The position numbers and the translations under genes are program-made. Shown here in pieces: positions 16,367 through 56,175 of a DNA stretch of 64,000 nucleotides. The notes beneath the pieces are model-generated. The model was given only the letters and a program-made list of their open reading frames with translations. It had not been told where the DNA came from and ran no database searches. Positions within the stretch are counted from its first letter, which is position 1; each line of letters starts with the position of its first letter. The stretch comes from Acanthamoeba castellanii str. Neff (Eukaryota; Discosea; Longamoebia; Acanthamoebidae): NCBI RefSeq assembly GCF_000313135.1, contig NW_004457269.1, positions 190,385-254,384 of the forward strand, written 5' to 3'.

Positions 16367-16377
16367 GGTTAGGGCTG

Positions 16378-21960: not shown

Positions 21961-22010
21961 TTTGTTGGCGGTGGGGGTCTGTATGCGAAAAGTCAGAAAA
22001 TTGTTTCGCT

Positions 22011-25786: not shown

Positions 25787-26401
25787 ATGCGTTCCACCAC
25801 TACCACCTTTGTCGCTGTCACCTTGCTCCTCGCCCTCGCGTGCCACAGCGCATGCGCAGGTCGAACCTGGGCGAGCACGCCGTTCAAGTTGTGGAGCGCC
25901 CACAGCAGGGAATGGATTCGCGTCGACGACTCCTGGTCGCTCGAGGAGATCATGCGCGGCGCTGACGGCACCGACAAGTGGGAGGCCACACCCTTTTCGG
26001 GCTGGGCCTATAACAGCAGCAATGGCCAGGACACCATCCAGTACAACATGCTGTTCGGATTTAAGAGCAACCACTATCACCCGACCGGCACTCTCAACTA
26101 CAACGTGGTGTGGTGCGTGCCGCGCAACATCACCGGCGACACACATACCTGGGCCAAGAACCCACTCCTGTGCAACGGCCACCCTCAAGATGCCGCCAAC
26201 AACTACCGCTTCAAGTTTGTCAAGCCTGCGGGCTTTGCCGGCGGCGACATCATCGAGGACGGCTACCCGGTGCACCTCTACGACACCAAGTTGGACAAGT
26301 ATTGCTCCAATTGGATCTGGCCCAGCAACCAGGCTGCCCTGCTGTGCGACGCCGCCGCCCCGACCTCCTCTGGCCAGCGGTTCAACTTGCACTGGGCCTA
26401 A
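25787..26401 (+). CDS. secreted or surface protein with signal peptide, 204 aa
   Basis: ATG 25787 gives an N-terminal signal peptide (RSTTTTFVAVTLLLALACHS, cleavage probably after SACAG). I prefer it to the upstream in-frame start at 25757 because it sits right before the hydrophobic core. The mature part has aromatic-rich segments (FSGWAYNSSNGQDTIQYNML; YCSNWIWPSNQAALL), several Asn-X-Ser/Thr sites and paired cysteines. No family name is known to me. Its 3' third is duplicated at 24005-24225, and two other secreted proteins of similar build lie at 37732 and 55318, which suggests a small expanded surface-protein set. Confidence 0.75.
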   Translation: MRSTTTTFVAVTLLLALACHSACAGRTWASTPFKLWSAHSREWIRVDDSWSLEEIMRGADGTDKWEATPFSGWAYNSSNGQDTIQYNMLFGFKSNHYHPTGTLNYNVVWCVPRNITGDTHTWAKNPLLCNGHPQDAANNYRFKFVKPAGFAGGDIIEDGYPVHLYDTKLDKYCSNWIWPSNQAALLCDAAAPTSSGQRFNLHWA

Positions 26402-27315: not shown

Positions 27316-28746
27316 CTAGGATTGTTCTGCTTTCACGGGGACAAGGGGCACGGCGGCGGGTGGTGGGTGGGCTGTTGTGGTGGGCCGGTCTTGCTGGGAC
27401 GCCAAGGCGGGTCTCTTGGCCGGCGGTGCACATGTGGCACTAGGGGCGATATGCTGCCTCTCGGATTCTTCCTGCTGCTGCTGTGGAGGTCGAACGCGCT
27501 TCCTGTATCGCATGCAGCGTATCACGGTCGTCACTGTCTCGTTGCTGCGCGCCACGTCCTCGGCGGCGAACAGCATTGCGGCGTTTAGGCACTCGTTGGA
27601 GTCAAGGGGGCAGCGGTGGTCGGCCAACCACTGGAAGACGCCGGCTCGGCCGTTGCTGCACGCCGCCAGGGCAACCTCGGCGCCGAGCGTCTGTTTGAGC
27701 TCACACAAGAAGAAGGCCAGTATGTCGGTGTGACCGCACGCACCGGCGTAGATGGCCATCTGCCCGACATAGGGGCAGCCCTCGGCAAACATCCATCTGA
27801 CCATCTGGAGGTGGCCTCTCACGATGACTTCGTTGGCCGTCGCATAGTTCCAAGGGATCGGCGGCGCCTTGGCCCTCACCCACTTGGCCGTCTCCACCTT
27901 GTTGTGGATCATGGCGTTGTACAGGGCGCTGGCGGGGATGGCGTGGCCCTCGTCGTGGAGCCATGCGGCCACGTCGTGGCGACCCGCGCCCGCACACTTC
28001 CACATGAGGCGGGCCGCAGAGTAGGGGCAGCGCATATCGACGATGAGACGCTGGAGCGTGTCGAGTTTGCCGTGGAAGCCGGCAGCGTCGGTCACGCGCG
28101 TGTCCCAGGGGCAGCCCACGCTGCGCAGCCAGCGCACGACGTTGATCCTATCGGCGCCGGCGGCCACGGCGCACAGCGATGCTGTCGGCCGTGCCAGCCG
28201 CTTGTTCAGCATCCACTTGAGCACGTTGATGTGTCCGGCGTGGGCGGCGCTCTCGGCGACGGCGCGGTCCATTGTCACGCCGCGCTTGTGGAGCCATCTC
28301 AACACGTGGAGGTTGCCAAATGAGGCGGCGTTGGCCGCCATGCACGTGGGGAGACTCCAGCCCTTGGAGTAAAGGTAGTTGAGGGTGTCGAGCGCCGAAT
28401 CGGCGACCGCCGTCATGCGCACGTCCTTCGGGGCGAGCACCAAGCCGTCGCATGTGCTGGCAAAGTGGGCGTCGGGGTCGTCTTCCTTGGCCGGTTCGTC
28501 TTCTTTGGTTTCAGGGGGGAGGTTTGTCCGTCGGGCCAGGGTCGTCGCCGAGGGCTGTGCGACGGCAGGCAGCAGATTTTCGAACCTGACTCGATCTTCG
28601 TGGCGGGCCACGAGAGGCACCAACGTGCGATTCGGCCAAGCATACGCGCCCGAGTGGCTGCCGCCCATCACGGACGCCAAGGTCACCGACGACGGCGGGG
28701 CTTGGTTGGTGCACACGGCAAGGGAAAACAGTTTGGTGGTGGCCAT
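27316..28746 (-). CDS. ankyrin-repeat protein, giant-virus style, 476 aa
   Basis: A complete frame from ATG 28746. After a 100-residue leader the protein has about eight ankyrin-like units with the pattern seen in amoebal giant viruses, in which the second helix reads 'xxVLRWLxxxG': GNLHVLRWLHKRG, GHINVLKWMLNK, DRINVVRWLRSVGCPW, GHLQMVRWMFAEGCPY. The C-terminal 60 residues are Pro/Gln/Ala-rich and basic. Such proteins probably act as protein-binding adaptors, often with host ubiquitin ligases; no F-box is visible here. Amoebae also have ankyrin proteins, but the intronless frame and 'RWL..GCP' unit style favour viral ancestry. The gene is intact. Confidence 0.85.
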   Translation of the reverse strand: MATTKLFSLAVCTNQAPPSSVTLASVMGGSHSGAYAWPNRTLVPLVARHEDRVRFENLLPAVAQPSATTLARRTNLPPETKEDEPAKEDDPDAHFASTCDGLVLAPKDVRMTAVADSALDTLNYLYSKGWSLPTCMAANAASFGNLHVLRWLHKRGVTMDRAVAESAAHAGHINVLKWMLNKRLARPTASLCAVAAGADRINVVRWLRSVGCPWDTRVTDAAGFHGKLDTLQRLIVDMRCPYSAARLMWKCAGAGRHDVAAWLHDEGHAIPASALYNAMIHNKVETAKWVRAKAPPIPWNYATANEVIVRGHLQMVRWMFAEGCPYVGQMAIYAGACGHTDILAFFLCELKQTLGAEVALAACSNGRAGVFQWLADHRCPLDSNECLNAAMLFAAEDVARSNETVTTVIRCMRYRKRVRPPQQQQEESERQHIAPSATCAPPAKRPALASQQDRPTTTAHPPPAAVPLVPVKAEQS

Positions 28747-28786
28747 GGCTTTTTTGCTGGTTCTGTGAGGTGCAGCGTTGTGCTAT

Positions 28787-30641: not shown

Positions 30642-31104
30642 NNNNNNNNNNNNNNNNNNNNNNNNNNNNNNNNNNNNNNNNNNNNNNNNNNNNNNNNNNN
30701 NNNNNNNNNNNNNNNNNNNNNNNNNNNNNNNNNNNNNNNNNNNNNNNNNNNNNNNNNNNNNNNNNNNNNNNNNNNNNNNNNNNNNNNNNNNNNNNNNNNN
30801 NNNNNNNNNNNNNNNNNNNNNNNNNNNNNNNNNNNNNNNNNNNNNNNNNNNNNNNNNNNNNNNNNNNNNNNNNNNNNNNNNNNNNNNNNNNNNNNNNNNN
30901 NNNNNNNNNNNNNNNNNNNNNNNNNNNNNNNNNNNNNNNNNNNNNNNNNNNNNNNNNNNNNNNNNNNNNNNNNNNNNNNNNNNNNNNNNNNNNNNNNNNN
31001 NNNNNNNNNNNNNNNNNNNNNNNNNNNNNNNNNNNNNNNNNNNNNNNNNNNNNNNNNNNNNNNNNNNNNNNNNNNNNNNNNNNNNNNNNNNNNNNNNNNN
31101 NNNN
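30642..31104. other. assembly gap (463 N)
   Basis: All bases are N. The gene structure on either side cannot be joined from this sequence. Confidence 1.
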
Positions 31105-31680
31105 CCCCGAACGACGGGTCGTACGACAGGACCTCGGTCGCGGCGTCGAACGACGGGAAATCGACCAGAATGGAGCCAAAGTCGGCCGACAGGCTCGCGG
31201 TGACGTTGGACGAGCGATGGGCGCCGGTGGGCGCCGTCAGCGAGTCATCGGCCTCCTGCGCGCTGTAGACCAGGGCGAAGCCGTACAGGCCCACGCTGAC
31301 GTCAGCAGTGGAGTTGGCCACGTGTAGGCTCAGGCTGGACGTGGCCGCCGCGGCGTCGTCGACGCGGTCGGCCGAGCCCACCAGGGGGTGGGAGGCCAGG
31401 CTCATCGCGAGCCGCAGGCGGTGGGCCGCGCCGGCAAAGGGCCACCGGCGGGCGTTGAAGGTGTACTTGAGGTGGTTGCGCGGCACTGTGACCGCGATCT
31501 CGCCCCACGGCTGGGTGAAGGCCGAATCGGGCGAGAGCACGTAGGCGATGGCCACCTCGGCGCCGTTGGCCAGCGTGGCCCGGAACGTGATCTCGTCGAC
31601 CGTGGCGCCGTTCGACCGGACCGCCGTGGCCGGCCTGGTCCTGTTGGCGGTGTGGTTCTACCACCACCAGCCGATCGACA
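31105..31680 (-). CDS. extracellular-type domain protein, partial
   Basis: Minus-strand frame entering the gap: EITFRATLANGAEVAIAYVL, EIAVTVPRNHLKYTFNARRW, SLHVANSTADVSVGLYGFAL. The alternating pattern suggests a beta-sandwich, with Asn-X-Ser/Thr sites, so probably secreted or surface-exposed. A TAG stop lies upstream of the start of similarity near 31660, so the true 5' end is probably an intron boundary. It overlaps the first 130 bases of the opposite-strand frame at 31548. Confidence 0.4.
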
Positions 31681-34499
31681 ACGTAACAACAACCACAGCA
31701 CCAGCAGCAGCAACGCCTGTGCACACGACCCCGTCGGCCGCCCATGCACCATCCATGGCCGAGGGTCCCTTTGATCCGCACCACTGGCTGCAGCATTCCT
31801 CGCTGCAGGGCACTCCGTGGCCGCTCCTGCGGGCCAACGCACCTTCCTCCGAAGCGTTGCAGTTTGGCGCCTGCGGCGACATGTACGACGTCCTGCGGCG
31901 CGCCGTGGACGTCATCGACAGCGACCACGAACAAGCGAGCCAAGAGCTCGACGTACAGTCTGCTCGCGTGCGCGCTGAGGTGATAGCGTCCCTTCTCAAC
32001 ATGCGACTCTTGTCTGTTGAGCAGGCACGCGCCTCCAGCATGCACAAGGTGAATTCTGCGTTGGCAGCCGTCATCTTGGCCCTGCGCCTCTCCGATCCCG
32101 CCGGCGAGTGCCGCCTGGCTCGCGGGGCTTGGGACGCCGGCGTGTGGCGCCAGCACGACACCCTTAAAGCCTTCAACCGTGGCTTGGCGCTCATCAGCAC
32201 GTTCCCCTCGCGCTCGCCTTCCAGGTCTCCCGTTGGGATGCGCTCGGCGTCTCCTGTTATCTCCCGCTCTCCTTCGCATACGGGCTCGCCTTCTCCTGGT
32301 TTTGCTTCGGCCACGCCGTCGGTGCCTTTCATCACGCCGTTCCCTTCGCGCAGTCCCTCGTCGTCGGCAGCGCCGTCCAGGTCAGCGACGCCCTCGCGAT
32401 CTCCCGGCTTTTCGGCTTCCGCCAGTCCCACGCTGTCAGCATCCGGCTCGCGCTCGCCCTTCCCCTCGCCTTCAGGATCAGCCTTGCCGTCGCTGGGCGC
32501 CTCGCCGTCTCCTTCGCCGGCCTTGGTATCACCATTCCCATCGCGCTCGCCGTCGCCCACGGCCTTCCCTTCTGTCTCTTCGACATCATCGCCTTCTTTG
32601 GGTTCCAGCCCTTCTTCGAGCCCGACGGTCTCTAGCACTCCGACGGCGTCATCCACCTCCAACCCAACCCCGAGTCCGACCGGAACGACGAGCATCTCTC
32701 CATCTGCGAGCCTTGCACCCTCAACTACACCAAGCACCTCACCGTTGGCCACTCTTTCATCGACCCCTTCACTGTCGCCCAACGTCTCCCCCTCTGGTGA
32801 GTCCGCTCCCCCCCGTGTCTTCTACGTCCATCTGTGCAATACAGCATTGTGCGTGTATCCGTTCCATGTCAAATCTACATCTACATCTACATCTGCCTCC
32901 TCCTCTGCCTCTACAACCACCTCTGCCTCCACTTCAGCATCCATCCACCATCAGCACACTCACTACAACTGCACTTTGATGCCGCGGTGACAGGATTACT
33001 AACTCTTTGTTGTGTGTGTATGGCATTGCTACAGGTACGGCGAGTATCGCCCCGACAACGAGTCCTTCGCCTTCGTCGTCGCTGAGTCCGTCGCCCTCGG
33101 TGACTCCGACCATCTCAGTCACGCCCAGCGTCACTCCCAGCATCTCGCTGAGTCCCTCGCCTTCGGTGACCCCGACCATTTCGGTCACGCCCAGTGTCAC
33201 TCCCAGCATCTCGCTGAGCCCTTCGCCTTCAGTGACCCCGACCATCTCAGTCACGCCCAGCGTCACTCCCAGTATCTCGCTGAGTCCTTCGCCTTCGGTG
33301 ACCCCGACCATTTCGGTCACGCCCAGCACCACTCCCAGTATCTCGCTGAGCCCTTCGCCATCAGTGACCCCGACCATATCGGTCACGCCCAGCATCACTC
33401 CCAGTGTCTCACTGAGCCCTTCCCCCTCGGTGACCCCTACCATCTCGGTCACGCCCAGCGTCACTCCTAGCACTTCGCTGAGTCCCTCGCCTTCAGTCAC
33501 TCCAACCATTTCAGTCACGCCCAGCCTTTCACGGAGCCCTTCGCCTTCGGTGACGTCGACCATGTCTGTTTCAAGGTCTCCCACTCCATCAGGTATGTGT
33601 ACTTTCCGCTTTCTTACATTCACCACCACCATCACCACCATCACTTGCCACATCTACTGCATCTGCCGCCTCCCCCCCACATCGACTGCATCTACCGCCT
33701 CCCCCCTCATCGACTACATCTGCCGACTCAACGTCGACTGCATCTGCTGCCTCTACGGCAGGCGAATATTTATATTGCAACTGCTGTGCCAAACACACTC
33801 ACCGACGCCGCTAAAGCCACGCATCTGGAAGCCCGTGCCTCTACACGCGATCTGACGACAGCCTTTAACGTTGCTTTCATTTGGACAGGCACGCCGACTC
33901 GCAGTCCCACCCCGTCGCGTACTCCATCGCCAAGCCTGTGTACAGCCGTCGGTCAGCCGTGTAGCGCCATCCCTTGCTGTCCCGGCAGCGAATGCTATTT
34001 CAACGGGGTGACGCTGACGTGCCGAGCCCTGCCCAGCCCTTCCGCCACGCCAACGCGCTCGCCAACACCCTCGTCTAGTCCTTCGTTCGGTTCTTCGCGC
34101 ACGCCCACGCCGTCCATCACGCCGACGGCGTCGCCGAGTCCCTACTGCGCGCCGCTCAATGCGTCCTGTTTGAACTTTCCGCCCGTGGTGCCATGCTGCC
34201 TACCGTATCTATGTCAGGAGCAGGGCGTTGGTGGCGCTAGCATTTGCGTCGCACCAAGTCCGTCCCCAAGCATCACGCCTTCGCCCACCTCGACACCGTC
34301 AGCGAGTCCTTCCTTTGGCGCTTCGGTTTCGCCCACACGCTCACCCACGCCGTCGCCCTCCTTCACATGCAGCGCTCCCGGCAACGGGTGCATCGAGCCC
34401 ACCATCGTTTGTTGTCCTGGCTCGGTGTGCGTCTACAGCGGCACATTCGGAACTTGCACAGTGACAACGCCAGACTTGCTCTTTTCTGCCGCATGGTAG
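31548..34499 (+). CDS. mucin-like Ser/Pro-rich surface protein with three six-cysteine modules
   Basis: Three exons, 31548-32796, 33035-33592 and 33889-34499, with GT-AG introns of 238 and 296 bases; both junctions keep frame in a GG/N codon and the total is 2418 bases (805 aa). Exon 1 encodes a possible N-terminal membrane segment (VAGLVLLAVWFYHH), a helical globular domain (about residues 80-220), then a Ser/Pro/Thr stalk. Exon 2 is almost entirely a 22-residue repeat. Exon 3 has three modules of pattern C-x(5-6)-C-x(4-7)-CC-x4-C-x(8-9)-C separated by Ser/Pro linkers, the cysteine order of inhibitor-cystine-knot folds. It is probably heavily O-glycosylated and cell-surface or secreted. The introns suggest a host gene. 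The true start could be later (an ATG occurs at MAEGPFDPHH). Confidence 0.75.
33089..33540. repeat. 66-bp coding minisatellite, about 6.8 units
   Basis: Repeated units of about 66 bases encode a 22-residue Ser/Pro/Thr/Val repeat (for example VTPTISVTPSVTPSISLSPS) in exon 2 of the surface-protein gene. Units differ by synonymous and conservative changes, which points to selection on the amino-acid pattern. Confidence 0.9.
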
Positions 34500-34667
34500 A
34501 TGGGGAAGAATGGGTCATGGTGAATCTGTATATATGCATGTTGGCATTGGAAAAAAACTACATCTCTTGGCCAATCACATCATCTCGTGCTGCCCCCACC
34601 GCGGAGGTTCGCGGGCAAGGAGATCAGCCCGGCGGCACTGTGCTACGCGATCGACCAAGAGCGGGCG

Positions 34668-36155
34668 ATGATCTCAGCCGAAGACCACCAGCGCCCCGGC
34701 GGCTCCCCTTCGCCAGGGGCCGCAAGCCCCTCTGGAGGAGAGCACGACGTGCACTCGCGCCTCTTCCAACTGGTGCTCACGGGAGGCCTCGAGGGCCGCC
34801 ACTTTGGCGACTATTGCATCGTCAGCCGCCAATGCCTCTTGGCCGTGGGCCGCCTGGAGGGGGCCAGGCAGATCGACGAGGACGCCAACGACGGCGAGGA
34901 TGCCTTGGCCGGAGGGGCCGCCGTCGAGAGCATCACCCGCGAGCCTGCCTGGGGCCAAGTGCCCCCGTGGCAGGTCGGCGGAGAGGGAGGTGATGGCGAT
35001 GATGACGCCGACGACGACGATGGCGGCGACGGACACTCCAGAGGGACAACCTATGGCGCGCGAGACAAGCGACTGGCCTACTTGGGATCTGTGCGCCTGT
35101 GCCCGTGCTTCATCGCCTACGAGGACCTCAGCATCGACGTGCGCGTCATCGGCAGCGGCTCCTACGGCCAGGTGCACAAGGGCCGATGGAAGGGCAGCAA
35201 GGTGGCGGTAAAGCGCCTCATCTACATCAACCGCCGGAGCGAGGAAGCCATCCAGCGCCTCCTCTCGGAGACGGCCGTTCTCTCGACCGTCGAACACCGC
35301 AACGTGGTCAGGTTCGTCGGCGCCTGCATCCAGGAGCCCCGTCTCTGCATCGTCACCGAGTACATCTCTGGCGGCAGCCTCCGTAGCCACCTCGACGGCG
35401 GCAGACAAGGAAGTCGCGGCGGTGGCGGCAGCAGCGGCTCGGTGGCGTTTGACATGCGAGCGCGCATCAGCATGCTGCTCGGGGCCGCCAAGGGCCTGCG
35501 CCACCTCCACCGCAAGGGCATCCACCACTGCGATGTCAAGGCAGCCAACCTGCTGGTAGAGCCCGTGGAGAACAGCCTCCCCACCATCAAGGTGTGCGAC
35601 TTTGGCATGGCCCACACCAAGAACCAGGCGCGCACCACCACCCGAGGCGGCACGCCGGCCTGGACGGCGCCAGAGATCATCCGCGGGGGCAAGCGCACCG
35701 ACCGCAGCGACGTCTACTCGTTCGGCATCCTCATGTGGGAGGTGCTCACGAGACGCAGGCCCTTTGCCGGCCTGCCGACCATGTCCATATCGCTGCAGGT
35801 GTTGGAAGGCGAGCGGCCGTCCATCCCTCTGGACACGCCCAACGACTACCGCTCGCTGATGGTGCGATGCTGGGCCGAGGACCCTGCCGACCGCCCCTCG
35901 ATGATAGAAATCGCGAGCCAACTCAAGCGGATGGCCGCCACCCGCAATGCCGCCCACGACAACGTCGGCAGCGACGACTTGGCCCGCCACCGCCTGCCCG
36001 AGTTGAGCGACGACGTCTCTGACGACGACGAGGACGACATCGAGGGCCAGTATGACCAGAGCGACTCCAACTCGGACATCGACGGCGGCAGCCAGCCATG
36101 CCACAGCAAGAGGAAGGGCAAAGGCAAACGCGCCTTGGACACTCTGGTCATTTAG
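34668..36155 (+). CDS. TKL-type protein kinase with long acidic N-terminus, 495 aa
   Basis: From ATG 34668; the frame is open further upstream and similarity-like sequence (SPAALCYAIDQER) may start in an upstream exon. An acidic Asp/Gly linker precedes the kinase domain (about residues 155-420). Visible parts: glycine loop GSGSYGQVHKG, VAVKRL lysine (about 182), VTEYISGGSLRSHL hinge, catalytic loop HHCDVKAANLL, DFGMAH, TPAWTAPEII and DVYSFGILMWEVLT. The HRD arginine is replaced by cysteine (HCD). Overall style (GRWKG.KVAVKR, VGACIQEP.LCIVTE) is that of the TKL kinases abundant in Acanthamoeba and its giant viruses. The tail is acidic then basic (KRKGKGKR). Serine/threonine or dual specificity is likely. 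Confidence 0.88.
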   Translation: MISAEDHQRPGGSPSPGAASPSGGEHDVHSRLFQLVLTGGLEGRHFGDYCIVSRQCLLAVGRLEGARQIDEDANDGEDALAGGAAVESITREPAWGQVPPWQVGGEGGDGDDDADDDDGGDGHSRGTTYGARDKRLAYLGSVRLCPCFIAYEDLSIDVRVIGSGSYGQVHKGRWKGSKVAVKRLIYINRRSEEAIQRLLSETAVLSTVEHRNVVRFVGACIQEPRLCIVTEYISGGSLRSHLDGGRQGSRGGGGSSGSVAFDMRARISMLLGAAKGLRHLHRKGIHHCDVKAANLLVEPVENSLPTIKVCDFGMAHTKNQARTTTRGGTPAWTAPEIIRGGKRTDRSDVYSFGILMWEVLTRRRPFAGLPTMSISLQVLEGERPSIPLDTPNDYRSLMVRCWAEDPADRPSMIEIASQLKRMAATRNAAHDNVGSDDLARHRLPELSDDVSDDDEDDIEGQYDQSDSNSDIDGGSQPCHSKRKGKGKRALDTLVI

Positions 36156-40331: not shown

Positions 40332-42008
40332 TTACGCCTGGCACACAACGTCGTCGCCCAGCAGGCTAGGGTGGTGGTTGTCAAAGACGGCGACGTCGAA
40401 ACTGCGGCCCATCATGATGAACTCGACCTCCTCGGCGACCAGCGCCTGCTGGAGGATGAGGCGCATGAAGGCGCGGCGGTCCTTGAGGCTGAGCATGCCG
40501 TTGGGCACCACGGCCGTGCCGTCGCAGGCAAAGGACTTGACATAGATGTAGCCCTTGGGCGTCTTGCGGAACGACTGCAGCGGCTCCAGCATGCGGTAGA
40601 CCCGCGCCTCGTCGCCCTCTCCAAAGAGAGGCTTGTTGTCAACGTAGAACACGTTGGACAGCAGCGGGTCGCGCCCGTTGACGCCGGCGAAGTTAAAGTG
40701 CGAGTTCTGCTCGACGCTGGCCTTGCGCCGCAGCATCCACATGAGGCTGATGAGCGGACCCCCGAGCGGCACCGGCACGTCGACGCGCTGCTGGCCGCGC
40801 GGCAGCGTGACGATGTTGTGCTGCACGCGCGTGATGACCAGGATCTGGTTGCCGTTGGTGAAGGTGCGCGCGTCGTTCTCGTTGAGGTGCACGTAGGTGA
40901 CGCGCAGGTGGGCGGCGAGGTCCTTGGCCGTGAGGCGGTGGCCGTCGGCCTTGACCGGCACGATGTCGTGGCCCGATGTGACGATGCACCGGTTGAGCGC
41001 GGCGAACTTGACCTCAATCTTGACCACGCTGCTGGCGTTGTGCTTGTTCATCTGGCCGTAGGGGAACACGCACCCGGCGCACAGGGTGTAGAAGAAGGGC
41101 AGCGGCGTGTAGAGGCGCTGGCGGTCGGCCGAGTCGAGCACCAACTGCTTCCAGTTCTCGCGCTTGCCGATGTGCTCGTTGAGCTCCTTGCCGGCGTAGC
41201 CGGCCACCTCCTCCCAGCCGTAGAGCCACAGGTTGATAAGGCTGTTCCAGTTCTTGTCCTCGACGATCATGGTCGTCATCTCCGGCAGGTACTGGCCGAT
41301 GGCATTACACCAGCGCACCCAGCCGCGCACCCTCTTCTCCGGGGAGCGCGACGAGGACTTCTTGTCGACGGGCCGCGACTGCTCGAAGGAGCGGTCGAAC
41401 CCCAGGATGGACTGCTCGACGGGATCGAACGAGGTGGCGGCGTCGCCCACGCCCTTGTTGCTGCCGTAGGCCTCGGCGTTGTAGATCTTCTTGCCCGCCC
41501 TGGCCGTGGCGGCCTTGCCCGTGCGCTCGGCGGCGTAGCGGGCAAAGGCCTTCTCGTCGGCGCGCTTGAGGATCTCGCCCTCGACGGGGTACTCGGACGG
41601 GTAGTCGAGCGAGCAGTCGCCGGTGCCCGCGCCGGCCGCGCGCCGCGCCGCCTTGATGCCTGGAAGGTCGATCACCAGGTAGGTGTGGTAGATCATGTGG
41701 CCCAGGCGCTTGAGCGTGCACGTGGCGGTGCCGCCAAAGGCCACCTCGCCCTCGTTGAAGGCCTGGTTGTGCGATGACATCATGAAGTCGCCCACCTTGC
41801 AGAACCGCAGGCGAAAGAGGTTGGACTTGTAGCCCTCGCTGAGGATCTTGGCCACCTTGTCGCCGCCGCCCTGCGCCGCCGCCGCCGCACCCGGAACCGC
41901 CCCCGCCGAGGAGGACGACGACCGGAGCATGTCGACCAGGCTCACGGCGCTGTCGTTGATCACATTGTTGTAGTGGTGCGACGCGGAGGACAGGATGTGG
42001 TCCGTCAT
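40332..42008 (-). CDS. MCP: NCLDV major capsid protein (double jelly-roll), 558 aa
   Basis: ATG 42008 to stop 40332. The core matches the order of NCLDV major capsid proteins: SNLFRLRFCKVGDFMM and GTATCTLKRLGHMIYHTYLV near the start; LYTPLPFFYTLCAGCVFPYG at the end of jelly-roll 1; ISLMWMLRRKASVEQNSHFN (the 'W..R' linker), NGRDPLLSNVFYVDN, VYRMLEPLQSFRKTPKGYIY and SFACDGTAVVPNGMLSLKD in jelly-roll 2. This protein forms the trimeric capsomers of icosahedral giant viruses. The first 50 residues include an Ala/Ser/Gly-rich linker. About 100 extra residues sit in the first jelly-roll after the YLVIDLPGI strand. The frame is intact, CpG-rich and intronless. It is divergent from the classic mimivirus/phycodnavirus type; a relation to mollivirus- or pandoravirus-side lineages is only inference. 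Confidence 0.9.
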   Translation of the reverse strand: MTDHILSSASHHYNNVINDSAVSLVDMLRSSSSSAGAVPGAAAAAQGGGDKVAKILSEGYKSNLFRLRFCKVGDFMMSSHNQAFNEGEVAFGGTATCTLKRLGHMIYHTYLVIDLPGIKAARRAAGAGTGDCSLDYPSEYPVEGEILKRADEKAFARYAAERTGKAATARAGKKIYNAEAYGSNKGVGDAATSFDPVEQSILGFDRSFEQSRPVDKKSSSRSPEKRVRGWVRWCNAIGQYLPEMTTMIVEDKNWNSLINLWLYGWEEVAGYAGKELNEHIGKRENWKQLVLDSADRQRLYTPLPFFYTLCAGCVFPYGQMNKHNASSVVKIEVKFAALNRCIVTSGHDIVPVKADGHRLTAKDLAAHLRVTYVHLNENDARTFTNGNQILVITRVQHNIVTLPRGQQRVDVPVPLGGPLISLMWMLRRKASVEQNSHFNFAGVNGRDPLLSNVFYVDNKPLFGEGDEARVYRMLEPLQSFRKTPKGYIYVKSFACDGTAVVPNGMLSLKDRRAFMRLILQQALVAEEVEFIMMGRSFDVAVFDNHHPSLLGDDVVCQA

Positions 42009-45640: not shown

Positions 45641-46412
45641 CGTCGCGCTTCCCCAAAGGTGCTGGTGCTGTCCGCCGACCTTTGGTCACCAAGCCCAGGG
45701 AGGTAGTTTTGGTCCAACTTCGTCTACCGCACTCGCGCGCGCACACGCATGACGACTGAAAGCGAGGAGGTGTGGAAGTTTACGGCCTTGGGTTCTTGGG
45801 TCCAGACGGACAAGGCAGCGGTCGCGACGACCCTCCCCTCGTGGCCCTCCAAGAAGGGCATACTTTCGCAAGCCTATATGATCTCGTCGGCATGACGTGG
45901 CGCGCTGGTATGTCCTGCCCCTGATGACGAGGATGCCGACGGTGTGCCACGAACTGCGGCAGCACCTGTGTGCTTCCATCCCTCCCCTCGGGAGAGACCA
46001 AGACAACTACCGCCTGTGCCACCGGTTCACGAGGACGGTGTGCTATTGCGAGCCTCGGCGGGTGTCTGACCAAGGCTGGAGAGACCCGCGCGCCAAGGGA
46101 GGAACACTCGAGTAAGGAAAGGAAGAAGAGGAGGCGCCAGTTGGCGGAGTGGAAGCATTCGGACTGACTGGCGCTCATGTCTGCCGTACCGGCCAGACCC
46201 TACAAGGACGACTTCATCGGTGCGACCCACGAATGGTCAGACAGATACGCCCGCCCGATGGCCGGAGCTGACCAACACGCCGGACATGGCCCACACCAAG
46301 CGACTGGCCTTCGCATCCTGGGTGATGGCGACCTACTTGCCCATCTGCGACGACATCATGGAAGCCAACAACGCCCCTGCCTGGGCCTTTGCGTGACGGC
46401 GACCCTTCGGGC
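45640..46412 (+). pseudogene. decayed copy of the 49404-50949 gene (block A)
   Basis: Piecewise matches to the right-hand copy: DVARWYVLPLMTRMPT (right copy DVARWYLFPLITTMPT), RPYKDDFIGATHEWSDRYAR (RPYKDDFLGAAHEWIDRYMR) and, after a slip, KRLAFASWVMATYLPICDD (KRLAFGEWVLSTYLPACDQ). The frame changes at least three times and the 3' part is lost after about 46410. It is the first element of the left-hand duplicated block. Confidence 0.75.
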
Positions 46413-46573
46413 CTCCAATGCCTACGGGGCGGCCTCAGCGACCACCGAGAGCGCGGAGGTCGCGGGTGGCCTTGGTGTTGGCAAAGACCATCTTGCACAG
46501 TCGGCGTCCAAGGGCAGTGGACCTGGCTGCTGTGACATAAAGACCATATCGATCAAGTTTCTGCTGTTTATTG

Positions 46574-46894
46574 TTAGGCTTCCGGGGTGACGGTCCAGTT
46601 AATGCCTTCTTCGACCTCTACGTGGTAGTTTTTACCTCGCAAATGACCCAGGGCACGCTGACGGACTGTCTCCTGGTAGGGGTCGCACGCACTAACCAAT
46701 TCAGCATAGCTCTCCAAGACCTTCTCGAATTGCATGCCAGAAGTAGACTGCGGTACTTGGCGGGGGGTTCGTGGGGTAGGTTGCTGCAACTCGAGCACGT
46801 TGAACTTGGTTGGCTGGCGCTGTTTATCATTCTGATTCATTAGTTCTTCTATCTTGTCGATCAACCTATCGACAGCCTCCACAGTGGCTGCCTC
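46574..46894 (-). CDS. small hypothetical protein, probable second exon
   Basis: Minus frame EAVDRLIDKIEELMNQNDKQ, RQVPQSTSGMQFEKVLESYA, VRQRALGHLRGKNYHVEVEE, stop at 46574. There is no ATG at the start of similarity; the open frame begins right after TTTGGACAG, a good 3' splice site ending at 46895, so an upstream exon is likely. Its lower GC and the intron signal suggest a host gene lying inside the left-hand duplicated block. Function unknown. Confidence 0.5.
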   Translation of the reverse strand, partial: EAATVEAVDRLIDKIEELMNQNDKQRQPTKFNVLELQQPTPRTPRQVPQSTSGMQFEKVLESYAELVSACDPYQETVRQRALGHLRGKNYHVEVEEGINWTVTPEA

Positions 46895-47211
46895 CTGTCC
46901 AAATCAAAACATCAGACCGCAGCAAAAACAATAACGATAGAGGAGGCATGAATGACCTGGCGCTGCTGTTACCGACCACCATGTCCCTCACTGACGGGAA
47001 GGAGAGACAGGTGTCAAAAACCCCATAGAATCCTATTCGTTGCTATTTACTATTATTACTGGTGACTCCAAGCACATGGTCGCGACTCCTTCAGGCCAGT
47101 TGCCAAGGGCTTTTGTTATTAATAACCACCGCAGAAATGCTGCCAAGTTGGCGCTATGAATATTCAGCCGCGGTACCTCAACTGCTCTAGTCAATATGCT
47201 CACGCAACCCG

Positions 47212-47745
47212 ATGGATGTCAGCCTGGCGGCCATCCGTCTGCTTCGTCCTGCGCGGGCACGGGCACGCACCGTTGATAAAGGCCGTAGAGTAGAGGAGGT
47301 TACGTTGCTGGCTCGTGACGGCGGCCGGGTCCTGCATGGCGGTCGATCATGCCCGGAACACGTCGACCAGGATGGACGTCCTCAGGGGACCGGAGTAGGG
47401 CTCCACGTCGTACTTGGCGAGGACGGCACCCGCGATGGCGACCTCGGCTCCGGCGGCACAGAGGAAGGCGGGGTTGGCCGTCGCCATGGCGTCTGCATCC
47501 TCTATCCCGAGTACGGAGGGCATGGACGTCTCCCCCGTCAGGGGCTTGTTCTTGGCACATTCTTGCCGCCAGGTGCGGGCGGCGTCCAACACGGCTGACC
47601 TCAGCCACGCCTCCGGCATGTAGAGGCTGTCGGTCACCAGCGCAACATCCGACGGCACATCGCTCCAGTCCATCGACAGCATCATCTCTGCGATGGTCTG
47701 GACACCAGGGCCAGGGTCAGAGCCATTGGGGGCGACCTTGTCCCC
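47212..47745 (-). pseudogene. decayed copy of the 51698-52801 gene (block A)
   Basis: Matches the intact paralogue through PGVQTIAEMMLSMDWSDVPS, SLYMPEAW, LDAARTWRQECAKNKPLT and PAFLCAAGAEVAIAGAVL. About 54 codons in the middle are deleted. At 47347-47349 a TGA stands exactly where the paralogue has TGG (VFRA-stop-STAMQD against VFQAWSVAMQD), and the frame then continues to about 47212 with a further slip. The paralogue comparison proves the stop is derived. Confidence 0.85.
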
Positions 47746-47840
47746 CTTCTTCCATGTACCAGTGTGAACGCCTCGACGGTTGCCAGACTAGTGAACAGCG
47801 TCACAGCCGACTGATTTCGACGGAAATAACCAACCTCAAC

Positions 47841-47996
47841 GGCGCCTTTGGCACTCCTGACCAGAAGGAGGACACCCCACGCAAAACCTTCCTCAGTAAC
47901 TACCGCGAGGTGCGCCACATCAGCGAGTTCAAGGAGACCTTTGACGCCGGCAAGTTCAGGCTGCCCGTGAGCATGCTGCACAACCACGCCCGCTAA
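47841..47996 (+). pseudogene. 3' fragment of the secreted-protein gene at 55318 (block A)
   Basis: Encodes GAFGTPDQKEDTPRKTFLSN then YREVRHISEFKETFDAGKFR, nearly identical to the C-terminus of the intact protein at 55318-56175. The 5' four fifths are gone and the last 14 residues differ. Third element of the left-hand block. Confidence 0.85.
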
Positions 47997-48120
47997 CTCT
48001 TTGTCAAAGGTCGTTGCTTAGGCCCAAGCATGTCTCTCTCGCCTTTTTACAATCACAAACTGCTTCCCCCCTCCGCCGCGCTCAACCTTAGTTCTCCTCG
48101 CGCGCCGCTGGATCTTAACT

Positions 48121-48131
48121 CTAACCCTAAC
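48121..48131. repeat. interstitial telomere-like motif
   Basis: CTAACCCTAAC directly at the 3' end of the F-box remnant. Confidence 0.7.
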
Positions 48132-48693
48132 TATGAGAAGTGTATAGTGCCAAGAGGAGGAGAGCCTTTCGGCTGTCGGCTAAGTGAGAAGATTCCAAGG
48201 CCATGACCTCGTTTAGCCACATGAGATCGACGCGCACACGGCCCTAGCGATGCACCCGTGCCTACGGCGAACGACTCGAGGTCCACCAGGAGAAGGATGG
48301 AGTCCTGTCTGTTCCCCAGCAGAGATTTGATGGTGTTGCTATTGAAGGTGGCAAGGAGTTGGCCCATGAAGATGTCGTCGCCGCCGTCGTAGGTCGGTAC
48401 ACCGTTGGTTGCGAGGTGGCTCCTCCGGCCAGAGGTCGGCCGTCTCCATGACTACGGTCCAAAACCGGTTGCGAGGCGCGGCCAGTGTTGTGGCGTAGCC
48501 CAACGCTAGTTGCAGACGATGATCGTCCTCCTTCGCGTGGCTGAGGAGGAGGAGTTAGCATCTTGCCCCCGTGCTCCGATGGCGCCGTCGAACGGTGGAG
48601 CCTACGCAGCGGTCTGCTAGTTGAGGCGAGGTCTCGCGGCGAGAGGAAGGAAAGCATACAGAGACCGGCAGTGGGCGCGACGGTGTTCAGCAC
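48131..48693 (-). pseudogene. F-box-type protein remnant (family of 56356), copy 1
   Basis: The N-terminal frame has an F-box-like LCMLSFLSPRDLASTSRPLR. After a slip, GQLLATFNSNTIKSLLGNRQ and ILLLVDLESFAVG follow. After another slip comes NEVMALESSHLADSRKALLL, related to the C-termini at 49020 and 56356. At least two frame breaks. Fourth element of the left-hand block. Confidence 0.55.
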
Positions 48694-49019
48694 CAGAGGC
48701 CGGATCTCCTCCCGGAGACAGGCGCGCTTGCCTTGGCCGCACGCCTCCTCCTTTTCTCGTATGACTGGCGCTTCTCTTCACGGTAGGCCACGGCGGTGGT
48801 GGACAACCTTAGCAGAGTGGATTCAACTCAACACTACACCTTGTCTGCTCCTCCCTCCCACATTCAAGGCGGAGGCGGAGGACGGAAACGGTACCACGCC
48901 CTCGCCAGGAGCACGAGCCTCTCTTGCACACGAAATACCTGAGCCTCCTCGATCTCCTTGGACGACATATAGACACCCTGCTGTCTCCCTCCTTCTGCTT
49001 CATTTCATTCCCAAATCTA

Positions 49020-49300
49020 TTGCGCCAAGAGGAGACGCCCCTTCTGGCCGGCGGCAAAGTGGGAAGGGAAGAAGGTCATGACTTCAGCGAACCACGTCTT
49101 CTCCTCGCCATCCTCGAGTCTTTTGCAGTAGGCAAGGCACAGTTGGATCGCAAGGGACAAATGGGCGGCAGTCTCGTCCGGCCTCTGGGGACGTCGAGGC
49201 GAGGGAGGCGAGGTCGCGCGGCGGAAGGAAGGACAGAATGCAGAGTTGAGCGAGAGGGAAAGACAACGGGAGAACGTTCCTATGGCCACTTGCCCCCAGC
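49020..49300 (-). pseudogene. F-box-type protein remnant, copy 2, internally deleted
   Basis: An F-box-like start (LCILSFLPPRDLASLASTSP) is joined after a slip almost directly to a C-terminal tail (KTWFAEVMTFFPSHFAAGQK then GRLLLAQ). The tail matches WLQDVLLTFPSHLASIRRTR in the gene at 56356. The middle of the gene is missing. Confidence 0.6.
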
Positions 49301-49403
49301 ACTAATATACGGAGTTAGTCACACTCGCAGCACTCTGGATTCTCCTTTCTTGACATTCGCCCAGACGTGAGCCCTTGGGTGTGACGGCAGGTTCAACCCA
49401 ACC

Positions 49404-50949
49404 GTGGGTCACATTAATGCTGGTCTGACAGGTGAGAAGCACGCCTGGGCCTTTGTGGCGACCTGCCGCAGCGCGCGCAGGCTTGTCTTGGGCCAGCGAG
49501 AAAGTGTCGATGGCACTGTCAGCCGACGGGTTCTGGCAGCCTATGCGACGGCCAACGGCGTAGCCCACCCCAGGCTCACAAGCGGAGCCGTCAATGGCCT
49601 CGTGCTTTACGCTTCCCTCCTGTGGGCGCGCACCATGCGCAATACTCCTCGCCCTATGGCTGCGTCATGCTTGTGGACCGTGGCTGCCTTGGCCGGGAGG
49701 CGGGCATGGCAATGCTACAAGCGCCACATGGCGCATCCCATCCCAAGAGCCACCCCATCATTTGGCGCTGGTGGGAGCCGACCTTCATACTGACCGACGG
49801 CAGAGTGGAAGGCGATGCGACCGCCGCCGCTGCAAACAACCACATCGGACCCCTGTGTCATGATGATGCTCATGGCTTCGTCGGTGCGAGAGGAGATCGA
49901 CCCTACGGTGGAAACTTGCCTGGCGGAGGTTGCTCAAGACGTGGCGCGCTGGTACCTCTTCCCGCTCATCACGACGATGCCGACGGCGGGCCTTCAACTG
50001 CGGCAGCATCTGACTGGGTCGTGCGGCAATGACGTCGACCAAAACGACTCGGAGTTGTACCATTTTGCGCGGACCGCGTGCTACGTTGCCGTCTTGGCGG
50101 GTGCTTGACCACGGCCCAGCGTCGCGCGAAACAGGTGCCGAGGTACGAAGAACGCGTCCACGAGGACGGGAGGAAGAGGAGGCGCCTCGAGGCTACACGC
50201 CCATGGAGGGGACGGAAGCACGGAGACTTGTTGGCGCCAAGCCGCCCCGCCCCTACAAGGATGACTTCCTCGGTGCTGCCCACGAGTGGATTGACAGATA
50301 CATGCGTCGGCTGGCCGGGTCGGACCAGCACTCGGCCATGTCGCCCGTCAAGCGTCTGGCCTTTGGCGAGTGGGTGTTGTCCACCTACCTACCTGCATGT
50401 GACCAAGTCATGGAGGCCACCACCGACCTCTCGGCACTGAGTATATGCATGCTCGCCAAGGCTCGCGCGGCCAACGCCTACACAACGGCCGTCGCCGATT
50501 ACCGCCACCGCGCACACGGCGGCTATCCTGGCGGAGGGGAAACGGCGGCACCGGACATGCACAGGGCAAAGCACCAATTTCGACATGCTGTCGCGAGCGC
50601 CACGCGCCGACCGTGCGCACTTTGGGCCTACATGCTCCACACGGTGTGCACCTTGTACGACGTTGCCATACACGAGGACGCCGCCAACGGCCCTTCCCAC
50701 TTACATTCCTTCTTGGCTGTCACCTACGAGATGCTGACCGACGAAACCAGCCTCGCCCTGGCCGGGTCTGAACCCGGCGGGTGCCGCGGACAACGAAACC
50801 AAGCCGCCAACATGATCGACGAGTTGCTGCTGCTGGGCAAGGCCCAAGGCGACAAGGCCGGGCACGACAGCCTACACTCGGCTCTGGACAAGGTGGAAGA
50901 CAATCTCGGCCTGGCGGACGCGGAATGCGATGAAACAGAGTCGGACTGA
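49404..50949 (+). pseudogene. large hypothetical gene with several frameshifts (block B)
   Basis: Protein-like pieces follow one another in changing frames: SARRLVLGQRESVDGTVSRR, PIIWRWWEPTFILTDGRVEG, EIDPTVETCLAEVAQDVARW, CLTTAQRRAKQVPRYEERVH, then a long intact 3' part from about 50190 (RPYKDDFLGAAHEWIDRYMR; LWAYMLHTVCTLYDVAIHED) to 50949. If the slips are errors it would be a protein of about 510 residues. The decayed paralogue is at 45640-46412. The intact 3' frame 50190-50949 could still be expressed alone. No family recognised. Confidence 0.6.
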
Positions 50950-51020
50950 GTGGTGTATTGGGCGAGGGGGGAAGGAAGAAAAAAGACAGAGAGCTGGGCT
51001 TGGATACACGCCAGCACAAA

Positions 51021-51584
51021 CTACAGGCGCTGTGTGGTAGGGAGACCGAGGGTGGCTCTGCCGGGCTCATCGACGTCGGCGTGGTAGCACTTGAGTCCGA
51101 CTAGACTCTTGTCGATGAACTTGAGCTCTGCGCGCACCGCGTCCAACGCCGAACCCAACACGCAGTGGATGAGGCGGTTGCGGTCGCGCATGGTCACGCC
51201 GGAAGGGCACGGCGGCAACACCGAGGTGGCGGCTAGGAAGGGAGCCTTGCTGTCGTCGCACCACCGCTGGAGTCGCGAGACGATGCTTTTGCAGGCGCGC
51301 GGACGACGATAGACGTGCTGCCAGCGCGCCGTGCCGGGCATGGTGATGGTCTTGGGGTCGACGCCGCTGGCTTCGGCTTCCGCGACGGCCTTCATGTCGT
51401 CCAACCAGCGGGCGACGTAGGACACGCGATAGTCGGCCATGGCGATGCTGTGGCTCTCGCTGTCCAAACCGGGCATGTGATGTGTTTCAGGCCAACGACG
51501 AGCGATCTCGTCAATGTCCCAGCCCTCGGCCAATTGTGCTAGCGTCTCCTCGTAGGCACTCCTCTCACATCTTTGTCTATGGCT
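51021..51584 (-). CDS. hypothetical protein, about 185 aa
   Basis: Minus frame with ERSAYEETLAQLAEGWDIDE, ARWLDDMKAVAEAEASGVDP, RPRACKSIVSRLQRWCDDSK and LIHCVLGSALDAVRAELKFI, stop at 51021. No ATG is available at the start of the good sequence, so the 5' end may be an exon boundary or use another start. No counterpart is seen in the left-hand block. Function unknown. Confidence 0.5.
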   Translation of the reverse strand, partial: SHRQRCERSAYEETLAQLAEGWDIDEIARRWPETHHMPGLDSESHSIAMADYRVSYVARWLDDMKAVAEAEASGVDPKTITMPGTARWQHVYRRPRACKSIVSRLQRWCDDSKAPFLAATSVLPPCPSGVTMRDRNRLIHCVLGSALDAVRAELKFIDKSLVGLKCYHADVDEPGRATLGLPTTQRL

Positions 51585-51697
51585 CTTTCAAGAGCGCGCA
51601 AGGAACAGAGACTCTTTCTGGTCTTTCTTTCTGCTAGATGGGGGGACGGCAAGGGACTGCATTTCAAGGGTCATGCATACGGAGAACAGGGTTTTGC

Positions 51698-52801
51698 CTA
51701 CTCGTCGATGTGTTCCTGCAAGACGATCGCCGTCAGTCGAGCGGCCATCCTTTCGATGTCGGCTTCGTCTTCGGCGGTCACCGGCACGCCGTTGGTAAAG
51801 GCCGTAAAGTAGAGCAGCCCCCGCTGGTGGCTGGTGGTGGCAGCGGGGTCTTGCATCGCGACCGACCACGCCTGGAAGACGTCGACAGGGATGGATGTCC
51901 TGAGCGGCCCATTGAAGGGCTCCACATGGTACTTGTCGAGCACGGCGCCAGCGAGGGCCGCTTCAGCGCCGGCGGCACACAGGAAGGCGGGACTGGCCAC
52001 AGCCAGGTCTTCTGCGTCCGGCACTCCGAGGACGCGCAGAGCGTGCACCAGGCGGGCCGTGCGCTCGGCCGTCAGGGGCTTGTTCTTGGCACACTCTTCC
52101 TGCCAGGTGCGGGCGGCGTCCAGCACGGGTCGACCGTGCTTCTTTTGACGCTGCCTCTTGTCGGCCCTACTGGGCTTGGCAAAGATGGGCTGCGCGGTGT
52201 TGGCCAGCACATAGGCCCACAGTTGGGCCAGCGCATCGGTCAGGTCGCAGGCCGACACGGTGGCCGTCCTCAGTCGGCGGTCGCGCCACGCCTCTGGCAT
52301 GTAGAGCATGTCGGCCAACCATGCCACCGCCGTCGGCACGTCGTTCCAGTTGACAGGCAACATCATGGCTTCGATGTCCTGCACGCCGGGGCCATCAAAG
52401 GCCTTCTTCTTCCTCCTTTTGTTGTTGTTGTTCTTTGCCTTCTTCGCCTTGCTTGTGCCAGCCATGTCCGCGTGTGGCCACTGAGAGAGACCTGCGAGAA
52501 AGTCGCTGAGCACCCTGCCGTAGGGCGCAAGATCACGAGGCACCTTGGCTTCGTTGCGCTGGATGGGCCTGTAGCAGAGGCCACCGTCCTTCTTGGCAGC
52601 CGGATTGTACTCGATCCTCACGCCGTGGACAAACTGCACGGGAGCACCGGCACTGCCATCGCCGAGGTAGAACAGCGCCACCTCAGAGTAGGTGTTGCCG
52701 TCGGTCTCGAGGATCTGAAAGTAGTGATCCTGGCAGTCGTTCTCTTGCCACTCGTGTTGCTGCTGCTGATCGAATTGGTCATCGAGGGAGAATGGGTCCA
52801 T
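51698..52801 (-). CDS. hypothetical protein, 367 aa (block B, intact copy)
   Basis: ATG 52801 (MDPFSLDDQFDQQQQHEWQE) to stop 51698, uninterrupted. An N-terminal beta-rich part (HYFQILETDGNTYSEVALFY) is followed by a Lys/Asn low-complexity linker (KAKKAKNNNNKRRKKK), possibly a nuclear localisation signal. A helical C-terminal domain follows (MLYMPEAWRDRRLRTATVSA; LDAARTWQEECAKNKPLTAE; DIERMAARLTAIVLQEHIDE). No family recognised. The decayed paralogue at 47212-47745 shows which parts are lost there. Confidence 0.7.
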   Translation of the reverse strand: MDPFSLDDQFDQQQQHEWQENDCQDHYFQILETDGNTYSEVALFYLGDGSAGAPVQFVHGVRIEYNPAAKKDGGLCYRPIQRNEAKVPRDLAPYGRVLSDFLAGLSQWPHADMAGTSKAKKAKNNNNKRRKKKAFDGPGVQDIEAMMLPVNWNDVPTAVAWLADMLYMPEAWRDRRLRTATVSACDLTDALAQLWAYVLANTAQPIFAKPSRADKRQRQKKHGRPVLDAARTWQEECAKNKPLTAERTARLVHALRVLGVPDAEDLAVASPAFLCAAGAEAALAGAVLDKYHVEPFNGPLRTSIPVDVFQAWSVAMQDPAATTSHQRGLLYFTAFTNGVPVTAEDEADIERMAARLTAIVLQEHIDE

Positions 52802-53106
52802 CGGGGCACGAACGCGGGAGGTGATGTCAAGACGCTTTGTCGTTACAGTCCAGATGCTCCGGTCAGGTCAGTCGAGAAAGGGTGAGGCACACCACACAAA
52901 AGGGGATGCCCAAGGGTGCAGGTGTGTACGGAATTGTGGCCTCACCGAGGCCACTGTGCCGGATCATCGCAGAAGCAGGACTGGGTGCCTGATGCGGCTA
53001 TGGTGTGGCTGCCTGGCCGGCAGGGGGGTTCGACGCACCATGCCATGTCTTTGCGCTCCAAAACAAAATAACCCTAAGTACCTCATACTGCCAACATCTC
53101 TCGGCC

Positions 53107-54240
53107 ATGCAATCGCCTCTAGTCAAGATCCGCAGAGTATGCGACACGCTGGACTGCCATGCGTCTACCAGTTGCGCGCACGGCGATGTCTTCTCGTACA
53201 TCGCCACCGATGTGCTTTGCGAAATCCTCTCCTACCTCGCGGCACGAGACGTCCTGAGGCTGTCGCTGACGTGCAGAGCCCTGCGATATGCCGCCGTCAT
53301 TCGGCCCTTGGGCTGCTTCTCCTGCAGCATCGAGCAGATCAAGGACCTAGTGGCAACCTGCCGTGGCCAGCGACAGACCACCACTACCAACGCTCTTGCG
53401 GCCCACTTTGCGTGCGCTTCGTCCTTGGCCGCGGCATTCAACCCCTACGTGCCTGGCGGCGACAACGCACACAACCTCTTCGCGGCTGATAGTCTTTGCC
53501 TCCTCACCGACACTCTGCCTCTGTCGAGCCGCGCCCTCTCCAAGTTTTGCGCAGCGGCTGCTCACCCACTACCACCGCCACTGCAACCACCGGTGGCCAC
53601 AACGGGCACGATCATCATCGCCTCGGGCATGCAGTCCCACCACAAGACGAGGTCGCTGTTGGCTTGCTCGCAAGAGCACATCGCTGCTTTGGAGGGCGAG
53701 CGACCCAGGTTCAACATCGACCTTCTCGTCGACGTCAACCCTTCGGCGGCTTCAGAGAAGGTCCTCGCGTCTCGAAGAGCATGGGTCTACCAGAGTGAAG
53801 CCCGAGACCTCAAGAAGATGCTGACCAAGAACCGACCACGGGACAATCTTCTCATCGACGGCAGCGCCAAAAACCGCAACTTTCACTTTGACGGGCCGAC
53901 CTTGGCCGGCCTTGGCGCATTGGACGCCGGTCTCTCCAGCCTTTGTCTCTTTGTGAGCGCGTCGAGTCGAGGTGCTTTGGACGAAACGGCATCGACAACG
54001 GCAAGTGCGGAGACCACCAAGCCACTGATCACGGCACTGGCTCTTTCGGCCCTCCAGGTAGCGCTCTTGCAACGCACGACGTTGGTCTTGGTGTCAGTGC
54101 ACTGGTATGAACAGGGCCTGAAACTGGCTCACATTATCCGCCAAGACCCGCGTGCCGCGACGCTCAAGATTGCCATGTGCCAGTGCGACGCCTCATCAGC
54201 GATGAACCGGAACGTGGACCTCGATGGTGTGTTAGCATGA
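53107..54240 (+). CDS. F-box protein, 377 aa
   Basis: ATG 53107 (MQSPLVKIRRVCDTLDCHAS). The F-box (IATDVLCEILSYLAARDVLR then LSLTCRALRYAAV) lies at about residues 35-68. The remaining 300 residues form an unknown domain (TTGTIIIASGMQSHHKTRSL; FNIDLLVDVNPSAASEKVLA; RRAWVYQSEARDLKKMLTKN). F-box proteins recruit substrates to SCF ubiquitin ligases; amoebal giant viruses carry many, and the intronless frame fits that source. Intact. Confidence 0.8.
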   Translation: MQSPLVKIRRVCDTLDCHASTSCAHGDVFSYIATDVLCEILSYLAARDVLRLSLTCRALRYAAVIRPLGCFSCSIEQIKDLVATCRGQRQTTTTNALAAHFACASSLAAAFNPYVPGGDNAHNLFAADSLCLLTDTLPLSSRALSKFCAAAAHPLPPPLQPPVATTGTIIIASGMQSHHKTRSLLACSQEHIAALEGERPRFNIDLLVDVNPSAASEKVLASRRAWVYQSEARDLKKMLTKNRPRDNLLIDGSAKNRNFHFDGPTLAGLGALDAGLSSLCLFVSASSRGALDETASTTASAETTKPLITALALSALQVALLQRTTLVLVSVHWYEQGLKLAHIIRQDPRAATLKIAMCQCDASSAMNRNVDLDGVLA

Positions 54241-55203: not shown

Positions 55204-55317
55204 GCTTCTTGGTTGGGCGTTTCCTTCTCTCTCTCTCCCGGTATTGGCGATCCTCCTCCCTTAATGCCTCTTTGGATGCCTTCCAGTCAATAGAGACAAA
55301 GTCCTTTGCCACCTCGT

Positions 55318-56175
55318 ATGCAGTCCAACTCCGCCGACATGTTCAAGTTCGTCGCCGCGCTCGCGCTGATCCTGGCCTTGGCCGGCACCGCGGCGGCCGC
55401 CATGCCCCCGAGCAACCTGACCTGCCCGCCGCCCACCTCCTACCCCAAGGGCATGCTCGACAACCTGTGGTCGGCCACGGCGGGCTATTACGGCTCCACC
55501 AACGTGACCGGCTACGTGCTAGTCAACACCGGCCGGTACAACTTTGTCCAGGCCAGCAACTTCACCGGCATCTTCGTGCAGTATTACTCGCGAGCCCTCG
55601 GCACCTACGTGGCCGAGTATTACATCGACCTCGGCGCCGGCACCGCCGTCATGGTGCTCAACATCACCTTCACCCTGCTGGCGCACGAGAAGAACGTCAA
55701 CTACAACGAGTTCTGCCTCAACTACAACCCGGCGTCGGCCGTGACCGAGTACCAGCAGGGCAGCCAGATGTCCGACCGCTTCTTCTACGGCACCTACTAC
55801 GAGAAGTATTCGGCCCGCAACCCCAACAACTACGGCACCATCACGCGCTCCGAGTTCTTCAACTTTGACGCCACGGAGCGCTTCTCCTCGAACTGCCTCA
55901 CGACTTTTGCCGGCCACGTCGTCACTGGCATGAGTTGCTTTGAGTACGTCAAGGTGTCCAACATCCCCTCGATCAAGTCGGCGCCGGGTCCCCATGGCGC
56001 CTTTGGCTCGCTCGAGGACAAGCAGGACACGCACGCCTTCCTCAAGAACTACCGCGAGGTGCGCCACATCAGCGAGTTCAAGGAGACCTTTGATGCCGGC
56101 AAGTTCAGGCTGCCCATTAGCATGTTGTATGACGTGTCGCTCAAGCCCTACGTCAACGTCGCCGTTGTGGCCTAA
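55318..56175 (+). CDS. secreted/surface glycoprotein-like protein, 285 aa
   Basis: ATG 55318, or ATG 55339 directly before the signal peptide MFKFVAALALILALAGTAAA. The mature part has many Asn-X-Ser/Thr sites (PSNLTC, STNVTGY, ASNFTGI, VLNITF), Tyr-rich segments (YYSRALGTYVAEYYIDLGAG) and a few cysteines. Its C-terminal YREVRHISEFKETFDAGKFR is duplicated at 47841-47996. Expected to be exported to the surface, or to the virion if viral. No family name known to me. Similar in layout to the proteins at 25787 and 37732. Confidence 0.75.
   Translation: MQSNSADMFKFVAALALILALAGTAAAAMPPSNLTCPPPTSYPKGMLDNLWSATAGYYGSTNVTGYVLVNTGRYNFVQASNFTGIFVQYYSRALGTYVAEYYIDLGAGTAVMVLNITFTLLAHEKNVNYNEFCLNYNPASAVTEYQQGSQMSDRFFYGTYYEKYSARNPNNYGTITRSEFFNFDATERFSSNCLTTFAGHVVTGMSCFEYVKVSNIPSIKSAPGPHGAFGSLEDKQDTHAFLKNYREVRHISEFKETFDAGKFRLPISMLYDVSLKPYVNVAVVA

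Follow-up and report, generated by a model that had tools for sequence, protein, structure and literature searches.

Giant-virus DNA has already been described in the genome of Acanthamoeba castellanii Neff. Seven major capsid proteins (MCPs) are reported in this strain by Willemsen et al. 2025 (PMC11702301), four of them seemingly intact; in the available excerpts of that article, the match to ACA1_363120 is not specified as one of the four. The same excerpts mention an MCP on Neff contig_164 which resembles the MCP of M. sibericum and is identical to ACA1_363120, the latter being credited to Maumus and Blanc 2016. A mollivirus-like MCP in Neff is also named by Blais et al. 2025 (PMC12210455). 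In the parts of that article at hand, the viral insertions of Neff are methylated, silenced, eroded and disproportionately subtelomeric.

The window studied here is a stretch of 64,000 nucleotides of Neff DNA, C234:190385-254384, in an assembly of 38,447,144 bases and 250 contigs. Its main features are given in Table 1. The capsid gene it contains is almost certainly ACA1_363120 of A. castellanii (A. terricola) Neff, as judged by the strain, the contig and the single full-length copy: The strain is the same, and ACA1_363120 likewise codes for a mollivirus-like MCP. In a literature search, ACA1_363120 and ACA1_362950 lead as locus tags to a single paper, PMC11702301. The case is already known and in print. 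The window resembles the viral insertions of Neff and C3 described in the excerpts of PMC12210455: in both, viral genes are accompanied by duplications, broken gene copies, orphan ORFs and mobile elements. Those excerpts also report methylation, silencing and a largely subtelomeric position of the insertions, which for the locus in the window would be predictions. Very probably, DNA of a Mollivirus relative has entered the nuclear genome of Neff and persists there as a silent, eroding insertion.

Table 1. Features of the window, in order of position (1 is the first base of the window).
Feature	Position	Strand	Remarks
Tyrosine-recombinase retroelement	8729–13154	-	Pieces 87–96% identical to the copy on C200
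Copia-type gag/integrase ORF	13715–16471	-	Domain search
SDR-like pieces	20558–21967	-	Sub-threshold; TGA between them; paralogue on C15 (78% DNA identity)
Second DUF5888 gene, fragment	24016–24177	+	Profile positions 127–174 of 192; 83% DNA identity to 26204–26360
DUF5888 ORF	25742–26398	+	179 residues of ACA1_362950; N-terminal signal-like stretch; ATG at 25787
Ankyrin-repeat ORF	27319–28782	-	Domain search
Run of 463 N	30642–31104		Divides the capsid side from the SDR/retrotransposon side
Copy of C234:111091-111612, 522 bases	31105–31626		99.4%; abuts the N run; no N from here to the capsid gene
Protein kinase ORF	34524–36152	+	PK_Tyr_Ser-Thr, E 9.7e-59
Orphan ORF, 460 codons	38802–40181	+	Convergent with the capsid gene; protein search finds only the window's own protein
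Major capsid protein gene, mollivirus-like	40332–42008	-	Uninterrupted frame, 558 codons (558 amino acids)
Orphan ORF, 527 codons	42469–44049	+	Divergent from the capsid gene; genome search gives a single location
Shortened copies of ORF pieces	45891–47713		65–75% DNA identity to 49935–50428 and 51701–52394
Partial copy, 3' part of the DUF5881 ORF	47841–47978	+	85% DNA identity to 55996–56127
F-box ORF	52993–54237	+	Domain search
DUF5881 ORF	55294–56172	+	E 3.5e-64

The capsid gene and its relatives

The initial annotation described an intact giant-virus capsid gene, and this is confirmed. The frame starts with ATG, ends with TAA and has no internal stops; the plus strand of the same interval is not the capsid gene. 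The profile search which had been proposed as a check gives significant matches to both Pfam capsid domains, Capsid_N (1.3e-10, 41.6 bits, cut-off 24) and Capsid_NCLDV (3.1e-10, 40.5 bits, cut-off 34.8). Both are above their curated cut-offs, as expected of an MCP of the Nucleocytoviricota. A sequence search of the PDB gives 8rbs as the best match, a chain named 'Major capsid protein' (E 6.9e-35). Chance is excluded as the source of these matches. A double jelly-roll fold is predicted from the profile and sequence matches, and the landmark strands of both jelly-rolls named in the initial annotation are putative; a structure model of the protein, built from two sequences only, has a pLDDT of 28.7. 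No strong 3' hairpin was found past the stop codon (z 1.15 and 0.74).

The closest relative of this protein is viral. About 5.8 billion proteins were searched, and 7,989 candidates were scored. Apart from the window's own protein, a single one reaches E<=1e-3, the capsid of Mollivirus kamchatka; it shares 64% identity across 100% of the length (65% in the alignment). The MCPs of M. kamchatka and M. sibericum share 64–65% identity with the window capsid over the whole length, and have the same two Pfam domains. Unlike them, the window capsid is found in amoeba DNA with no surrounding viral genome, and 35% of its residues differ. The MCP of M. kamchatka scores 27.3 bits with Capsid_N and 52.5 bits with Capsid_NCLDV, so that the window capsid is above the virus in one domain and below it in the other, with no sign of uniform erosion. 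Scans of viral contigs with either of the two capsids confirmed no relative, and the M. kamchatka capsid was without a match in a phage collection.

When the genome was searched with the M. kamchatka capsid, the gene in the window matched at 65% (residues 1–555), and it is the one full-length capsid match. Three weaker matches (26–31%) are found on contigs C86, C169 and C153. Aligned jointly, these capsids share only 19–25% identity with the window capsid, and in each case the open frame examined spans just part of a capsid. Two of the three were compared with solved structures. Unlike the window capsid, they score best against 3kk5 and 5tip (PBCV-1), and therefore correspond to another lineage.

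The two ORFs which flank the capsid gene contain no Pfam domain and have no second location in the genome search. Since this is the case, and since the convergent one has no known relative, the viral DNA between 24 and 56 kb may well be discontinuous. Inspection by eye had suggested that the convergent ORF and another one at 57134–58327 might be eroded packaging ATPases. This idea found no support in Pfam (E up to 10), in the PDB or in a comparison of both ORFs with each other.

DUF5888 genes, repeated pieces and neighbouring ORFs

A second gene of the same lineage is found on the other side of the 463-base N run. The longer DUF5888 ORF includes residues 3–181 of ACA1_362950 of A. castellanii str. 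Neff, letter for letter. Its protein is 77.7% identical to the closest protein of M. kamchatka and 75.4% identical to the closest one of M. sibericum, while these two viral proteins are 77.7% identical to one another. The DUF5888 profile gives a slightly lower score for the ORF (232.5 bits) than for the two viral proteins (253.3 and 256.3). As far as sequence comparison goes, then, the nearest relatives of both the MCP and the DUF5888 protein are Mollivirus proteins. Both genes belong to this lineage, they lie in a contig of the amoeba, and they are accompanied by fragments. A third DUF5888 piece is present on contig C200.

Broken copies and mobile elements are found in and around the locus, as expected of an endogenous giant-virus element. 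The region from 45.9 to 48.0 kb contains copies of pieces from 49.9–56.2 kb, with 65–85% DNA identity and shorter open frames. Thus, a duplicated block of orphan ORFs (45891–52394) lies beside the capsid gene, and its left copy is the one with the shorter frames. A scan of viral contigs with the DUF5881 protein gave no relative, and a viral source of this ORF would be speculative. The name 'DUF5881' also appears in PMC7779014, where it is attached to another accession, and we have set that source aside as evidence.

The retrotransposons mentioned in the initial annotation are indeed present: a Copia-type ORF and, at about 8.7–13.2 kb, a tyrosine-recombinase element. The latter is presumably DIRS-like, judged by its domains. 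The same element is found at two sites, each with mollivirus-type DUF5888 fragments: the window and C200:705001-715000, where both lie in the same 10 kb. Mobile elements connect viral regions, according to the parts of PMC12210455 available.

The spliced genes claimed for the contig fared less well. There are two SDR-like pieces in one minus-strand frame, with 384 bases between them for 53 profile positions; an intron at this place is plausible from the sequence. On the other hand, both pieces (25.0 and 14.2 bits) are under the cut-off of 26.6. For the VIT/VWA gene, a VWA_2 piece reaches 27.1 bits (cut-off 27), whereas VIT is absent from the scanned ORFs, which are a subset of all ORFs in the window. 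A Rho gene was not seen in this subset either. An uninterrupted ORF for a zinc-type alcohol dehydrogenase is found at 2191–3252 (+).

Kinase, ankyrin and F-box domains are found in neighbouring ORFs, as had been stated. These neighbours may or may not share the viral source. A DNA search with the query that includes the kinase, with 39 of 64 candidates scored, gave 49 matches elsewhere in the amoeba genome; 48 of them fall in the kinase itself, with identities of 67–76% and one 43-base piece at 91%. Such kinases are a large family common to amoeba and viruses, with several transfers from nuclear genomes to viruses, as described in the excerpts of PMC12210455. The kinase, F-box, ankyrin and EEP-like ORFs may come from the amoeba or from a virus, and the same is true of a Kelch ORF. 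The EEP match itself is below the cut-off (17.3 vs 24.5 bits). The EEP-like ORF (58733–61125) has a 74–84% copy at C112:139008-139773, from which two in-frame stretches (177 and 240 bases) are missing. A reading of these as introns was rejected: The frame stays open across them, their lengths are divisible by three and their edges are not GT-AG. A tandem array with a 66-base unit and about seven copies is located at 33013–33606.

Linkage of the capsid gene to amoeba DNA

The initial annotation overlooked the N run inside the window. To its left we find the SDR pieces, the VWA piece, both retrotransposons and the DUF5888 genes; to its right, the capsid, the kinase, the F-box and the DUF5881 ORFs. 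The argument from spliced neighbours therefore crosses a gap. Another 6,512 N lie directly left of the window, and either run may be an assembly gap or withheld sequence. With these two runs, and with no read-through junction between virus and amoeba seen, we should consider whether DNA from a virus in the culture was misplaced into an amoeba contig during scaffolding. This is highly improbable for several reasons. The stretch 31105–64000 is free of gaps, and joins the capsid gene with a kinase found throughout the genome (48 match pieces), 4.2 kb away with no N between them, and with the 522 bases whose counterpart elsewhere on C234 is 99.4% identical. These bases may have been duplicated recently, or they may reflect an error of the assembly. 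Moreover, the DUF5888 genes are found with retrotransposons across the N run, and a mollivirus-like MCP is present in other Neff assemblies, according to the excerpts of PMC11702301 and PMC12210455. Contamination by M. kamchatka itself is ruled out by the 64% identity.

Integration is the best reading, because the kinase and the copied stretch are gap-free with the capsid gene, the DUF5888 genes lie among retrotransposons and the MCP appears in other Neff assemblies. The claim of an endogenous giant-virus segment in Acanthamoeba DNA was right in its core: A mollivirus-like capsid gene and DUF5888 genes are found in a Neff contig. DNA of an unsampled Mollivirus relative would have entered the nuclear genome of A. 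castellanii Neff, probably by true integration and not through a scaffolding error. It would have stayed there as a silent, eroding insertion, presumably with no present role. Two genes, that of the capsid and one of DUF5888 type, can still be read through; nearby sister pieces are fragments.

A simple count of telomere motifs in the last 28.5 kb of C234 (L009, L010 and L011) gives TTAGGG 2, 7 and 1 times and CCCTAA 0, 0 and 1 times. No telomere array is found in this region, so a subtelomeric position of the locus is unsupported.

Maintenance of the open frame

An intact capsid frame had been taken as a possible sign of recent entry, selection or expression. An open frame alone shows neither selection nor expression, and the first of these deserves to be weighed: The amoeba might maintain the gene by selection, for example as a decoy which becomes part of the virions of an invading mollivirus and spoils them. 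All 558 codons are open, neighbouring ORFs have fragmentary sister pieces, and the GC3 of the capsid gene (0.952) is higher than that of all 48 control ORFs (maximum 0.92). Ten stretches of 10 kb, five of them on C234 itself, were used for this control; nine gave the 48 ORFs, and the tenth, L029, gave none. Nevertheless, values up to 0.93 occur in L007 and L008, two stretches outside this control, in ORFs whose domains are of eukaryote type. For this reason GC3 is not used here to recognise foreign DNA, and it cannot separate selection from recent entry.

The open frame is also weak evidence. A random substitution in the capsid frame creates a stop in 2.5–3.6% of cases, and the chance of an open frame drops to 5% after 82–119 neutral substitutions (4.9–7.1% of sites). 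If one mutation in ten is assumed to be a frameshift, the 5% level is reached at 21–23 mutations. An open frame is therefore expected of a young neutral insertion. Of the 192 replacements with respect to the virus, 70 (36%) are conservative, where random change would give 30%; this weak excess includes evolution on the viral branch. In addition, the available parts of PMC12210455 describe silencing as a general property of viral regions in Neff. Maintenance by selection thus seems very unlikely.

The decoy itself, in which a capsid product made during infection would join and spoil the assembly of the incoming mollivirus and the frame would be kept for that purpose, is less likely still, even with a tagged MCP made in the amoeba entering mollivirus particles in the excerpts of PMC9879987. 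A trans-complementation is also reported in the literature to have failed.

The preferred reading is still that of a silent, eroding insertion. The published picture is unchanged by the window capsid. It is an example of a kind of case already in print: a relic of giant-virus DNA, in this instance from a mollivirus distinct from the two sequenced ones. The capsid frame is readable, and existing Neff data could address whether such relics are expressed.
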